The position numbers and the translations under genes are program-made. The notes beneath the pieces were generated by a model. It saw only the letters and a list, made by a program, of their open reading frames with translations, was not told where the DNA came from and ran no database searches. 64,000 bases of DNA from Clostridium thermobutyricum (lineage in GTDB: Bacteria > Bacillota > Clostridia > Ch29), in the NCBI GenBank assembly GCA_016842005.1, contig JAENYD010000002.1, forward strand, positions 62,001-126,000, written 5' to 3'. Shown piece after piece: positions 3,751 through 36,585 of the stretch (the first letter of the stretch is position 1; every line of letters begins with the position of its first letter).

Positions 3751-4020
3751 ATGATTATAAGGTTTTTAGCTCCTTTCGCCGAGGAACTGGGTGCCGGGGA
3801 GTGCAGTATTGAACTTCAGCGGCCCAAAACTCTGGAGGAACTGCTGGGCCTCCTGGCAGACCGCCATGCAGGATTTCGCAAATATATCAGTCGTGGAGAC
3901 CGGGACAATAATTACAGGCACAGTTTTGTATGCATAAGGGGTGGACGGATGCTGAAATTGCAGGATACGGTGGAGAATGACGATACGATTGAGATAATTG
4001 CTCCCATTATGGGAGGATAG
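3751..4020 (+). CDS. MoaD/ThiS-family ubiquitin-like sulfur carrier
   Basis: An 89-residue beta-grasp protein ending in the diagnostic Gly-Gly (IIAPIMGG). In MoaD and ThiS this tail is adenylated and thiocarboxylated so that the protein can donate sulfur, for molybdopterin in the case of MoaD. The ATG at 3751 follows GAGAGGGAG. The gene ends 17 bases before an aldehyde ferredoxin oxidoreductase, an enzyme that needs a tungsten-bis-pterin cofactor. MoaD-like genes commonly sit beside such oxidoreductases, so it probably serves cofactor sulfuration for that enzyme. The specific partner is inferred. Confidence 0.85.
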   Translation: MIIRFLAPFAEELGAGECSIELQRPKTLEELLGLLADRHAGFRKYISRGDRDNNYRHSFVCIRGGRMLKLQDTVENDDTIEIIAPIMGG

Positions 4021-4037: not shown

Positions 4038-5888
4038 ATGCCGGGTGGCTACTGCGGGAAAATTCTGCGGGTAAATCTGACGGATGGAAGGATTGAAGAG
4101 CAGTCCCTGTCCGAAGAATTCCTGAGGGCTTATGTGGGGGGCAGCGGGATAGGGGCCAGGTTCCTGTACGACCTGACCGGCGCTTCCACAGACCCTCTGG
4201 GGGAAGAAAACCCCATGATATTTATGACCGGGCCTTTTGCCAATACATCCATACCCACTTCAGGCAGGCACCAGATTGTTTCCAGGTCGCCTCTCACGGG
4301 GGTATACGGTGAGAGCGATGCCGGAGGTACCTGGGGGGCCGGGCTCAAAAAGTGCGGTTACGACGGTGTCATAGTGGAAGGCTGCTCTCCGGGACCGGTC
4401 TATGTGCTTATAGAAGAAGGCAGAGCCCGGATAAGGGATGCGGCGTTTATCTGGGGCAGGGACACCTATGAAACCGATGAAATGCTGAAAGAGGTTCATG
4501 GTAAAGACATAACGGTATCCTGCATCGGGCCCGCCGGGGAAAAACTGGTCAAGCTGGCATCCATAATGCACGACGGCCGGGATGGGAGGGCCGCCGGGAG
4601 AACCGGCCTGGGGGCGGTGATGGGCTCCAAAAAGCTTAAGGCCATTGTGGTGGCCGGGGGTATGAAAACGGCGGTGGCGGACGGGGAAAGGCTCAAAGGA
4701 AGCATCAAGGGGCTGGCCCCCACCATTGTAAAAAATACGGCGGCCATGGGGAAATACGGTACCGCCAATACGGTAATCGGCGCATACAAATTAGGGGATT
4801 TTCCCATGCAGAACTGGAAGAAGTACAGCTGGAGCGGGGTGGAAAATGTGTCGGGTCCCCGGATGGCCGATACCATTCTTACGGGGAGATATTTTTGCCA
4901 CAGCTGCATAATAGGTTGCGGCAGGGAAGTGGAAATAAAGTCGGGACCCTATGCCATGAGGGGAGCGGGTCCTGAATACGAAACCATAGGCAGCCTGGGG
5001 GGCATGTGTCTGGTTGACAACCTGGAGGCCATAGCCTATGGCGGGGAACTGTGCAACCGGTACGGCATTGATACCATTTCCACCGGCAGTGCCATTGCCT
5101 TTGCCATGGAGCTATACGAAAAGGGATTGCTGACCAGGGAGGATACCGATGGGGTAGAACTCATCTGGGGCAGCGAAAAGTCTATGCTGGACATGGTTCA
5201 CAGGATTGGCAGGGGGGAGGGCTTCGGCCAGCTGCTGGGTGAGGGCGTAAGGGAAGCGGCCCGGAAGATTGGCGGCATGGCGGAAGAATATGCAGTCCAT
5301 GTGAAAGGCCTGGAGCTTCCGGCCCATGACCCCAGGGCCTTCAACAGCCTGGGGCTGGGTTATGCCGTGTCGGACAGGGGGGCCTGTCACGTGGCCGGTG
5401 CCAGCTATTTCTTCGAGAAGGCGGTAACAATGCCCGAGCTGGGTATTGACGAGGTAATGGACCGCCTGAGGACGGATGAGCAGGGAGAGTTTCAGATGAA
5501 GTCCCTGGACCTCATGAATATGATGGATTCTCTGAAACTGTGCAAGTTTATACTGTACGGCGGTGTCAAGACCAATCATATGAGGGAATGGCTGAAATAT
5601 GTTACGGGGTGGGATATGGATATTGACGAGTTCATGACAGCAGGAGAGAGAATATCCAATATTAAGAGGATGTTCAATGTAAGATGCGGCATGAGCAGGA
5701 AAGACGATACCCTGCCCCTCCGGATACTGACCGAACCCCATACCGAAGGGGGAGCGGCGGGCAACCTGCCTCCCCTGGGCAGGATGCTCAGCGAGTATTA
5801 TAATGCCAGGGGCTGGGATACCGACGGCATTCCAAAGGCGGAAACCCTTCAGAGATTGGGGCTTGCAGCCCTGGCTTCATCCCGGTGA
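4038..5888 (+). CDS. aor: Aldehyde ferredoxin oxidoreductase (tungsten pterin enzyme)
   Basis: A 616-residue protein of the usual AOR length. It oxidises aldehydes to carboxylic acids with ferredoxin as acceptor, in the cytoplasm of anaerobes. The N-terminal pterin-binding domain begins GGYCGKILRVNL and has TGPFANTSIPTSGR (residues ~64-77). The [4Fe-4S] cysteines are C287, C290 and C294 (CHSCIIGC), with the fourth at C502 in SLKLCKF, as in the family. The ATG at 4038 follows AAGGAGGT. Translation is probably coupled with the MoaD-like gene upstream. The physiological aldehyde is unknown; amino-acid-derived aldehydes are plausible in an amino-acid fermenter. Confidence 0.93.
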   Translation: MPGGYCGKILRVNLTDGRIEEQSLSEEFLRAYVGGSGIGARFLYDLTGASTDPLGEENPMIFMTGPFANTSIPTSGRHQIVSRSPLTGVYGESDAGGTWGAGLKKCGYDGVIVEGCSPGPVYVLIEEGRARIRDAAFIWGRDTYETDEMLKEVHGKDITVSCIGPAGEKLVKLASIMHDGRDGRAAGRTGLGAVMGSKKLKAIVVAGGMKTAVADGERLKGSIKGLAPTIVKNTAAMGKYGTANTVIGAYKLGDFPMQNWKKYSWSGVENVSGPRMADTILTGRYFCHSCIIGCGREVEIKSGPYAMRGAGPEYETIGSLGGMCLVDNLEAIAYGGELCNRYGIDTISTGSAIAFAMELYEKGLLTREDTDGVELIWGSEKSMLDMVHRIGRGEGFGQLLGEGVREAARKIGGMAEEYAVHVKGLELPAHDPRAFNSLGLGYAVSDRGACHVAGASYFFEKAVTMPELGIDEVMDRLRTDEQGEFQMKSLDLMNMMDSLKLCKFILYGGVKTNHMREWLKYVTGWDMDIDEFMTAGERISNIKRMFNVRCGMSRKDDTLPLRILTEPHTEGGAAGNLPPLGRMLSEYYNARGWDTDGIPKAETLQRLGLAALASSR

Positions 5889-5955: not shown

Positions 5956-6003
5956 ACCCAATCGGTTATGGAAGTAAGGGTATTTGCAGCATGAGGAGTC
6001 AAC

Positions 6004-6040
6004 AAATCAGGCGGAGATTTTTCAACCCCGCCTGATTTTT
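6004..6040 (+). terminator. Intrinsic terminator after aor
   Basis: The stem AAATCAGGCGG (6004-6014) pairs with CCGCCTGATTT (6028-6038), followed by T's. It lies between the convergent aor gene (plus) and the arsenic operon (minus). The inverted strand also has a short T-run, so it may act in both directions. Confidence 0.75.
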
Positions 6041-6080: not shown

Positions 6081-6380
6081 CTAACTGTTGGTCCCGTCCG
6101 AAATTTCCAGTTCAAATCTGCCGTATTCCTCCACATAAAAAGTTATCTTTTTGTCTTCTTCGCATTTTTCGAGGATCCTGTTCTCGACATAGAATGTAAT
6201 GTTGCCGACAATAAACCTGGTATAATCATCGGCGTTTTCCGGCTTCCCCATCGAACCCGATGGGCCTTCAAAAGCCATTCATCACCCTCTTATAACGTAG
6301 TCGGTCTTGATGGTCACAGCATCGCCTTTATTTTCAATAAAATCCAAAAACCACTGCGATGAGAGTTTTGCTTTCCTCAA
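6081..6380 (-). CDS. Candidate selenoprotein with tandem UGA (Sec-Sec), HesB-like small protein
   Basis: Read from TTG at 6380 (ribosome binding site GGGAGGGAG, 6383-6391) the frame gives 99 residues if the two consecutive TGA codons at 6284-6279 are read as selenocysteine (residues 33-34). Before them is LDFIENKGDAVTIKTDYVIRG; after them MAFEGPSGSMGKPENADDYT, then FIVGNITFYVENRILEK. Both halves look coding and resemble small HesB/IscA-like proteins that carry an adjacent Cys/Sec pair after a KGG-AVT-type strand and before a P-S-x-x-GKP segment. A SECIS-like hairpin starts two bases after the second TGA. The gene lies 67 bases after acr3 on the same strand. Ordinary calling would give only a 65-residue ORF from 6278. 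The alternative is a nonsense-mutated pseudogene, which the hairpin argues against. Confidence 0.75.
6241..6276 (-). promoter_or_regulatory. Bacterial SECIS-like hairpin
   Basis: On the minus strand the hairpin follows the tandem TGA. The lower stem is GGCTT (6276-6272) with AAGCC (6245-6241), with an asymmetric internal loop. The upper stem is a perfect 7 bp, CCCATCG with CGATGGG, closed by the loop GGTT (6257-6254). The loop starts 21 bases after the second TGA, in the range of bacterial SECIS elements, and has the GGU-type loop recognised by SelB. It lies inside the coding sequence, as bacterial SECIS elements do. Confidence 0.75.
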
Positions 6381-6447
6381 TATTCTCCCTCCCCTCTGCC
6401 GGACAGGAATGTGAATTTTATTTCGTTTCCTACGGCCTTATCGGATG

Positions 6448-7521
6448 TCAGTTTTGGATGGACTTCTGCGGGAACCAGTGCCCTGTCCTGTTTGCAATTC
6501 TTACAAGAGCCAGCATTACAGGTACTTCTACCAGTACGCCCACCACAGTTGCAAGGGCGGCACCCGATTCCAATCCGAACAGGGATATGGCAACGGCAAC
6601 CGCCAGTTCAAAGAAGTTACTGGCGCCAATCATTGCTGCAGGCGCAGCGATATTATGGTTGAGCTTCCATATCTTTGCCCAGGTATAGGCAATAAAGAAG
6701 ATGAAGAATGTCTGAATAATAAGGGGTACTGCAATCAATCCGATATGAAGGGGGTTACCCAGGATAATCTCACCCTGGAAAGAGAAGATGATAATCAGGG
6801 TGAGCAGTAATCCGACAATGGTGGTATTGTTAAATTTTTTAAGGAACACATTTTCAAAATACTCAATGCCTTTGTGGGCAATGACGTATTTCCTGGATAG
6901 ATATCCACCGGCCAGCGGAATTACCACAAAGAGAACCACCGACAGGAACAGTGTGTCGTAAGGCACCGATACATTGCTGACCCCAAGCAAAAATGCCACG
7001 ATGGGTGTAAATGCAACCAGCAGAATCAAGTCGTTTACTGCCACCTGAACCAGCGTATAAGCCGGATCCCCGTCAGTCAAATGGCTCCAGACAAATACCA
7101 TTGCAGTACAGGGAGCCGCTCCCAGCAGTACAGCCCCTGCCAGGTAGTCGGTGGCCAGGTCGGCGCCGATCCATGGTTTAAAGATAACCTTTAGAAACAA
7201 TACTGCTATTAAATACATGGTAAATGGTTTGATAAGCCAGTTGGTCACACAGGTTACCGTCAAACCCTTTGGTTTTTTTGTTGCCCTCACAATGCTGGAA
7301 AAGTCAATTTTCAGCATCATGGGATAGATCATAAGCCATATAAGTATGGCCACGGGGATGGAAACGTGAGCATATTCAAATCTGCTCAAAGTTTCGGGGA
7401 ATGCCGGGAATATCTGACCTATGACCACCCCTGCAATAATACATAATGCAACCCATATAGTAAGGTAGCGTTCAAAAAAGCCCAATCCACTCCCTTTGTT
7501 CTGTTGCTCCTGTTTTTCCAT
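6448..7521 (-). CDS. acr3: Arsenite efflux transporter, ACR3 family
   Basis: A 357-residue, ten-helix membrane protein that exports arsenite (and sometimes antimonite). The ACR3 signature [19 protein letters not shown] is present with the essential cysteine at residue 138, and the [13 protein letters not shown] signature occurs near residue 300. I chose ATG at 7521, preceded by AAAGGAG; a start at 7560 would overlap arsR. It follows arsR by 4 bases on the same strand and is followed by the candidate selenoprotein, so all three are probably one arsenite-induced transcript. Confidence 0.93.
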
Positions 7522-7525
7522 ATAA

Positions 7526-7873
7526 CTATTCTCCTTTCCTGTCTGTATCAATAAAGTCATGCCTGTTATTATCGCAATCCGAAGGGCAGAACTTTATGTC
7601 ATTACATCTGGTGTTGATAATCCTGTTCAGGTCCTCAAGGAAGCTGTTCATTTCATCGTAGTTTATTTTATAAAAACGCCATCTTCCTCTTTTCTCGGAC
7701 GTAATCAACCGGCTTTCAACCAGCACGCTCAGATGATGGGAAATTGTCGGCTGGGTCAGGTCCATATTTTCCTTGAAGTCGCATGCGCACAATTCCCTGC
7801 AGGCCAGCAGTTTAAGGATTTTTATCCGGCTTTCGTCGCACAGGGCCTTTAATTTTGACATTAATCGGTCCAT
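7526..7873 (-). CDS. arsR: ArsR-family arsenic-responsive repressor
   Basis: A 115-residue winged-helix repressor. It carries the metalloid-sensing ELCACDF motif (C29 and C31) next to the recognition helix [19 protein letters not shown] and the wing segment [12 protein letters not shown]. Cys residues at 90, 97 and 101 in the tail could contribute to binding. Binding of As(III) releases ArsR from DNA. The ATG at 7873 follows GAGGTG. It heads the arsR-acr3-selenoprotein operon, and a perfect palindrome 14 bases upstream of its start is the probable operator. Confidence 0.92.
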
Positions 7874-8184: not shown

Positions 8185-8976
8185 ATGGAATTATACTATG
8201 GACAGCAAGGGGAGGTAAATGAAAGCTTACATTTAACTGTAGATTTTTCAGAACTTGAGGAAATGGCACGGAACGGGCTGCTGTCATTATCAGTGGAATT
8301 GGGTATCAAGGCATTAAAGATTATGCTTGAAGATGAGGTTATCTCATATGCCGGAGAGAAAGGCAGGCATAACCCATCAAGGACTGCATACCGGCATGGG
8401 CATGAAAAAACCAACGTTGTTTTAGGCGGTCAGAAGATAGCATTACAAAAGCCCAGGGTCAGGACTAAAGACGGAAGCGGAGAATTGCCCCTGGAAACAC
8501 TTATACAGTTCCAAACAGAGGATCTACTCAATAATGCAGCATTAAAAAGGATCCTTCATGGTGTATCTGTTAGAAACTACAGGCATACCCTGGATGAAAT
8601 ACCCGAAGGCTCCCATTCAACCTCAAAGAGCAGCATAAGCAGAAGGTTTACAAAAGAAACAGAAAAGCTTATGCAGGAATTCATAAATCGCCGGATAGAG
8701 GATTATTATCCTGTAATAATGATGGATGGAGTAACGACAGGAGATTATCTGGTTATTGTGGCCCTTGGCATATCAAAGGCGGGCAAGAAAAAAGTCCTTG
8801 GCATAATAGAAGGGTCCACCGAAAACGCTAAGATATGCACGGACCTTATTCAGAACATGATTAAGAGAGGTTTGGATGCTGAAGAAAACAGGCTATTCGT
8901 ACTGGATGGAGGTAAAGGGCTGCATAAAGCAGTTGACAGACAAAGGGACAGGGATTTGTCTGGTAACATAAGGTAA
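8185..8976 (+). pseudogene. IS256-family (Mutator) transposase, 3'-truncated
   Basis: The frame matches the N-terminal ~250 residues of an IS256 transposase (usual length ~400). It has the zinc-finger-like N-terminal region, the segment TAYRHGHEKTNVVLGGQKIA and the first catalytic Asp in YPVIMMDGVTTGDYLVIVA (residues ~175-193). Similarity stops after FVLDGGKGLHKAV near 8938. From there the DNA reads as a short inverted-repeat sequence (8937-8962) that recurs at 45950-45966. The second Asp/Glu and C-terminal domain are missing, so it cannot transpose. Confidence 0.85.
8937..8962. repeat. Short inverted-repeat segment at the IS256 breakpoint
   Basis: AGACAA and TTGTCT flank GGGACAGGGA. Nearly the same sequence occurs at 45950-45966 inside repeat copy R8. 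Its position at the exact point where transposase similarity ends suggests a deletion or insertion at a repeat. Confidence 0.55.
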
Positions 8977-9988: not shown

Positions 9989-10216
9989 ATGGTAATCAAA
10001 GTCTTAGGTTCAGGCTGCGCAAACTGCAAGAAACCGGAAGCCAATGTAAGGGAAGCAGTTGCACAACTGGGAATTGAGGCTGCAGTGGAAAAGGTGGAGG
10101 ATGTTAAGGATATTGTTGCTTATGGTGTAATGAGAACACCTGCTCTGGTGGTGGATGAGCAGGTGAAGGTAATGGGCAAGGTGCCTTCGGTTGAAGAAAT
10201 AAAGAAGTATCTGTAG
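9989..10216 (+). CDS. Thioredoxin-fold small redox protein (TM0996/MTH895-like)
   Basis: A 75-residue glutaredoxin-like protein with the redox motif CANC at residues 10-13 and the cis-proline segment GVMRTPALVVD (~46-56), giving a minimal thioredoxin fold. Proteins of this type often accompany arsenic resistance genes or YraQ-type permeases. Here it lies 2.1 kb from the arsR operon, separated by transposon debris, and points away from it. Just upstream (9916-9984) a short hydrophobic frame may be a relic of a permease. The ribosome binding site AGAGGAAGGG precedes the ATG. Its partner protein is unknown. Confidence 0.8.
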   Translation: MVIKVLGSGCANCKKPEANVREAVAQLGIEAAVEKVEDVKDIVAYGVMRTPALVVDEQVKVMGKVPSVEEIKKYL

Positions 10217-36370: not shown

Positions 36371-36501
36371 TTCTTGGCTCCAGGCAGGTTTGCTTTTTAA
36401 CCCCTGTCTGACGCTTGGAAACCGTTATCCGGAGACGTAGCGCAGCTTATCTTCCGCCTAAGAGGATGGGAGTATTAGCGGCGGTAGTCATCGGACAAAA
36501 T
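36371..36501 (+). repeat. Dispersed palindromic repeat, copy R6 (plus orientation, most complete)
   Basis: Left end CAGGATTCTTGGCTCCAGG, first hairpin GGCAGG...CCCCTGTCTG, then AAACCGTTATCCGGAGACG, GCGCAGCTTATCTTCCGCC, apical TAAGAGG, and right arm GGAGTATTAGCGGCGGTAG with TCATCGGACAAAATG. This copy defines the family borders used here. Confidence 0.85.
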
Positions 36502-36543
36502 GCGATCAGGCAGAGCCGGGCCTTTTTCAGGCAGCAGGGAATA

Positions 36544-36585
36544 AAAATCCTGTGGGACGCGATACAATCCCACAGGATTTTTTGG
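36544..36585 (+). terminator. Strong intrinsic terminator in the leader of the cation efflux gene
   Basis: A perfect 14-bp stem (36544-36557 with 36568-36581) followed by T's lies 34 bases before the CDF start, with no plus-strand gene upstream for 1.4 kb. The position suggests attenuation of the downstream gene. Two CAGGCAG motifs (36507-36513, 36528-36534) precede it. Confidence 0.75.

Follow-up and report, generated by a model that had tools for sequence, protein, structure and literature searches.

The tandem-Sec gene at 6081..6380 (minus strand) of the 64,000-nucleotide stretch of Clostridium thermobutyricum DNA analyzed here (the window) most plausibly, with a probability of about nine in ten on the evidence of sequence, specifies a 99-residue IscA/HesB-like protein whose adjacent UGA codons are decoded as Sec33-Sec34 by way of one hairpin, placing a vicinal pair at the family's Cys/Sec site. 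The limits of the gene, read-through of its UGA pair, the hairpin and the presence of Sec machinery are strongly supported; that Sec occupies both positions of the pair, that the gene is co-transcribed with its neighbors, and what chemistry the pair performs, we infer. It is also very likely that this gene represents an obligate Sec-Sec dyad lineage, with one SECIS for adjacent UGAs, that is kept in all sampled genes of six families and confers a diselenide/diselenol site absent from other sampled family members. Accounts of Sec insertion in bacteria pair one SECIS with one UGA. The conserved gene family described here seems to require two successive insertions from a single hairpin, and natural sequence thereby offers a test of processivity, of the rebinding of SelB and of how much variation in spacing is tolerated.

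The reading frame opens with TTG at 6380-6378, runs for 32 codons to TGA TGA at 6284-6279 and continues for 65 codons to TAG at 6083-6081, the same frame that a preliminary description of this DNA had given. The TTG is preceded by AGGGGAGGGAGAATA, with a ribosome binding site (the AGGGGAGGGAG region) at 6382..6395 of the minus strand. Homologues have similar purine-rich sites: in each of 15 tandem-Sec genes a start codon with such a site upstream of it precedes the pair by about 26-33 codons. The start and ribosome binding site proposed earlier for position 6380 are thus borne out by the sequence and paralleled in relatives. ORF calling with UGA as stop recovers no more than the C-terminal two thirds of the protein (a 65-codon ORF), and the earlier warning that ordinary annotation would lose the N-terminal third together with the active residues is accurate for a table-11 reading.

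That the mechanical call returns exactly this 65-codon ORF, and that an ATG (6278) directly follows the second TGA, recommends a split into two ordinary genes, of which the first, a leader or small ORF of 32 codons, would end in TGA TGA and the second, of 65 codons, would start at that ATG. A start codon after the pair is, however, confined to the window copy among 14 tandem genes compared (the codon after the second TGA being AGC, CAT, ACG, AAC, AAT or TTT in the others), and the homologues' own ribosome site and start lie ~30 codons upstream of the pair. Homologues with starts equivalent to 6278 had been named beforehand as evidence that would count against a single gene; on examination, none starts there. 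Protein-level selection is equal on the two sides of the TGAs (dN between the window and G002 is 0.34 before and 0.34 after, by the Nei-Gojobori method, with dS saturated), and by this measure the gene is coding across both. In alignments with single-Sec and Cys homologues the two halves also make up a single domain, and AlphaFold2 folds them as one. A split gene starting at 6278 is rejected on the homologues, selection and the predicted fold, and the two-gene reading as a whole is very improbable.

The read-through protein matches the NF041239 model (the CC/Se motif family, Moorella selenoprotein-related) across both TGAs, over residues 13-74 (E 3.7e-10), with 39.8 bits, which is 0.2 bits below the family's curated threshold of 40 bits; the part downstream of the TGAs scores 18.9 bits by itself. 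All 15 aligned members match the model at E <= 0.001. When a profile of the UU group is compared with the non-UU members of NF041239 (hhalign), the probability is 99.6 (E 2e-23) and the pair columns align. By these matches the tandem-Sec proteins are a UU subfamily of NF041239. Residues 33-34, which the preliminary description had suggested comparing with a Cys-Cys or Cys-Sec pair, fall in the family's Cys/Sec pair columns, and its proposal of a double-Sec version of the CC/Se-motif family takes concrete form as a UU clade of 17 genes within NF041239. AlphaFold2, supplied with a 15-row alignment, predicts one domain with pLDDT 86.6. The leading structural matches are all IscA/SufA/HesB proteins, with modest scores (Foldseek best E 5.4e-3, VIA Z 5.3), and the earlier assignment to HesB/IscA-like small proteins agrees with this predicted fold at the same modest level. 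A PDB sequence search with the protein returned nothing significant.

The window's genome carries selA, selB, selD and tRNA-Sec(tca), which is the full selABCD set that it had been proposed to look for. Its selD is itself a selenoprotein gene, with an in-frame TGA. The loop of its likely hairpin lies ~32 nt after that UGA (by eye; L029, G000:C21:169370-170293), and spacing tolerance in this genome may therefore be wide. Matches to selA over the cut-off occur in 14/14 other tandem-bearing genomes (all 15, with the window genome), and genome G309, which has the CC form of the family, has no selA match over the cut-off. Thus the gene presents what is looked for in a selenoprotein gene, namely an in-frame UGA, a SECIS within the limits of the bacterial model and selA/selB/selC/selD in the genome, and Sec insertion at the tandem is, by these genomic criteria, feasible.

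Decoding of UGA by something other than Sec, such as near-cognate Trp or a reassigned UGA, would also keep the frame open, in the sense that UGA-UGA is not a stop under a UGA = Trp code. This is scarcely credible in a genome that holds tRNA-Sec(tca), selA, selB and selD, and several homologous genes terminate at an ordinary TGA. The pair in relatives is Cys/Sec, or has Ala, Gly or Ser at one place; it is never Trp. The conservation of a SECIS hairpin downstream likewise speaks for Sec.

This hairpin has an upper stem-loop, CCCATCG-GGTT-CGATGGG, at 6247..6264 of the minus strand, within a 36-nt structure (6241..6276, minus strand) that is closed by a 5-bp lower stem, GGCTT/AAGCC. The upper stem of 7 bp forms in all 13 aligned genes of the main lineage, with 100% of cells paired, and two of its pairs show double-sided (compensatory) changes. 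The covariation score is 0.355, vs 0.195 in shuffles and <=0.06 when slid, and where an amino-acid change alters one arm, the third positions of Pro and Ser codons on the opposite arm change with it. Synonymous sites in the stem-loop are nearly frozen: in comparisons with the window gene its seven codons show 0-1 synonymous change in ~6 sites, vs 26-29 in ~30 elsewhere. Just 1.2-6.7% of synonymous recodings per gene give such a hairpin. As measured by these comparisons, the hairpin is more than chance. The lower stem is another matter; across homologues 66% of its cells pair and 2/5 pairs mostly fail, so that of the 36-base SECIS-like hairpin first described, the upper stem and GGTT loop stand, and the 5-bp lower stem is, on present alignments, specific to the window copy and outside the conserved element. 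(The TUU branch of three genes, described below, was left out of the 13-gene alignment; L036, alone folded of that branch, has a shorter hairpin.) Rfam has no match in the region of the gene.

A published model of bacterial SECIS elements specifies a loop of 3-9 nt, a stem of 4-16 bp, G in the first two loop positions, a distance from UGA to loop of 16-37 nt and an MFE of at most -7.5 (PMC13188914). The hairpin of the tandem genes has a 4-nt loop, a 7-bp stem, the loop G and a folding energy of -9.6 to -13.2 kcal/mol; in the window its loop begins 24 nt and 21 nt after the first and second UGA, respectively, and it lies within the published limits for both. The loop begins ~23 nt after the UGA in most UC and U-x-G relatives, and 20-21 nt after it in the CU relative L011 of the same genome. 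Since 24 nt and 21 nt are close to the distances in UC and CU relatives, respectively, one hairpin is near working distance for each UGA, and we infer that it serves both.

TGA TGA occurs at the same place in 17 homologous genes, including that of the window, from 15 genomes of six taxonomic families. (The others are L034 in G003, L035 and L036 in G002, L037 in G005, L075 in G416, L076 in G330, L077 in G306, L078 in G435, L079 in G396, L080 and L102 in G136, L081 in G205, L082 in G172, L083 in G282, L084 in G103 and L088 in G462.) When the pair columns are masked, a tree of 49 members of the family unites all 17 UU genes in one clade (support 100/98), and the UU state needs one change of state. 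The other sampled NF041239 members have UC, U-A/G/S (U-x-G), CGU, CU or CC at the pair. Because U was treated as Cys in the search profile, it would also have picked up members of the UU clade that have Cys; none with Cys at the pair occurs among the 398 genomes, of one phylum, that were sampled. Within the UU clade, a more divergent second branch with a T-U-U motif (L036 at 6530-6814, L084 at 6686-6940, and L102) has support 98/94, and genomes G002 and G136 hold both tandem branches. L088 has C-U-U in place of G-U-U, through one base substitution immediately ahead of the tandem. The window's own genome also has a CU paralogue of the family (L011, G000:C55:63182-63457), with a hairpin at matching distance. 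A search of a plasmid collection yielded no match for the tandem-Sec gene.

In the mechanism favored here, the single hairpin would recruit SelB and Sec-tRNA for both UGAs, with SelB delivering Sec-tRNA twice. Two successive Sec insertions should cost yield, and the amount of full-length product may therefore be small. That product would present a vicinal diselenol/diselenide on an IscA-like frame, near the place of the IscA cluster cysteine Cys35. As a reducing or metal-binding group, a vicinal diselenol would be rare in biology; that the tandem is strictly conserved although recoding two codons is costly implies that the benefit is strong. The most likely role of the Sec-Sec pair is that of a redox or metal/metalloid-binding dyad, which may have been recruited to arsenite resistance in the window's lineage and to other pathways elsewhere.

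The window gene lies 67 nt downstream of acr3 (6448..7560, minus strand; arsenite efflux transporter, TIGR00832, E 7.7e-119, over the cut-off), which is in turn overlapped by a gene for an arsR/smtB-type repressor (7526..7873, minus strand; NF033788, E 2.2e-25, over the cut-off). A search of the 67-nt gap found no promoter-like match, and a terminator-like hairpin with a T-rich tail lies downstream of the gene (6001..6038, minus strand; -22.8 kcal/mol, z -5.5); together these make co-transcription with arsR-acr3 likely, and the tandem-Sec gene is probably the last gene of that unit. Beyond arsR lie a transposase-like ORF (8185-8976, plus strand; by eye) and then a gene encoding a thioredoxin-like protein of the MTH895/ArsE family (9989-10216, plus strand; TIGR00412); this ars neighbor may have been parted from arsR by a mobile element. 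The window further contains a NiCo riboswitch (36492-36562, plus strand; 41.3 bits vs a gathering score of 37).

As(III) is a ligand of vicinal dithiols, and tighter binding is to be expected of selenols. The protein could accordingly be imagined as a dedicated arsenic factor whose selenolate pair binds As(III) and either passes it to Acr3 or buffers it. The gene adjoins arsR and acr3 in three of the four genomes of the window's family: L034 and L035, like the window gene, have both as neighbors, in differing orders and with a metallophosphoesterase gene, before the tandem-Sec gene. Against this, no ars genes are found among the identified neighbors of L037, in the fourth genome of the family, or of the genomes outside it. 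The same pair is conserved in genomes without ars neighbors, and the ancestral role is therefore probably not arsenic-specific; arsenic is one local use at most. Of what the preliminary description had proposed, the linkage to arsR and acr3 holds in this family and an arsenic-specific role finds no counterpart outside it. In the window's operon the role that suggests itself most naturally is arsenite handling, and even there a dedicated arsenic function is unlikely.

Service to tungsten aldehyde:ferredoxin oxidoreductases (AOR) or their cofactor, as redox partner or in sulfur/selenium delivery, is the corresponding suggestion for other lineages, tentative to the same degree, and the two are equally plausible. 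In the f83 and f134 genomes examined the tandem-Sec gene is preceded by an AOR gene, in most cases together with one for a ferredoxin, and followed by an iron-hydrogenase-like gene; L036 has a tungsten AOR, ferredoxin and a ThiS/MoaD-type protein upstream, along with an apparent FeoB (by eye). The gaps between AOR and tandem-Sec genes are roughly 280-360 nt, which does not favor such a link, nor does the orientation of the window's own AOR gene (4038-5888), nearby but convergent. No AOR lies near L034, L035, L037, L075, L076 or L084 (the neighbor of L075 is a NifU-like gene; L076 and L084 have other genes). Directly before the window's AOR gene is a small ORF (3751-4020, plus strand) that is MoaD/ThiS-like by eye and ends in GG; it has no NCBIfam match at 1e-8. 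The neighboring genes differ between lineages, and the neighborhood therefore points to no single function; a general redox or metal-binding role that has been recruited repeatedly would fit both the arsenic and the AOR surroundings.

Among known systems, NF041239 is the closest: it shares the domain over its full length, the position of the pair and the place of the SECIS. NF041239 is listed with one Sec, in the motif CxxU (PMC13188914 Table 1, 2026), whereas the tandem-Sec proteins would have Sec in both places of the pair and make up a clade of their own. NCBIfam (June 2026) offers no dedicated model that the tandem-Sec proteins match, and none closer than NF041239. The likeness to IscA/SufA/HesB (PF01521) lies in the predicted fold and in the Sec pair, which falls at or beside IscA Cys35 in a profile alignment of low probability (the match to E. 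coli IscA/SufA is weak). Unlike these proteins, the tandem-Sec clade lacks the C-terminal CGC of IscA; a Pfam search of the window protein gives no match up to E 1, and PF01521 has none in 26 genomes (its own and 25 relatives, searched in six frames), the model finding matches in 9/14 controls. It is because of the missing CGC and unmatched PF01521 that the tandem-Sec protein is not filed as an IscA member. HesB-like selenoproteins (TIGR01911) and IscA_HesB_Se (NF038090) likewise place Sec on an IscA-like frame, but the tandem-Sec protein does not match the former up to E 1 in an NCBIfam scan and matches the latter far under its cut-off (16.1 vs 85 bits). The Prx-like UxxU and other double selenoproteins also have two Sec per bacterial protein, but none is listed with a UU motif, which is absent from all 119 families of the same listing (PMC13188914 Table 1). 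The literature searched holds no bacterial Sec-Sec precedent (an earlier mention of the tandem is possible); the sole Sec-Sec protein found there is algal PDI_e, with the motif GUGUU, called the first by its authors (PMC7539508). It has the Sec-Sec in common with the proteins proposed here, but is eukaryotic, belongs to another family and follows eukaryotic SECIS logic.
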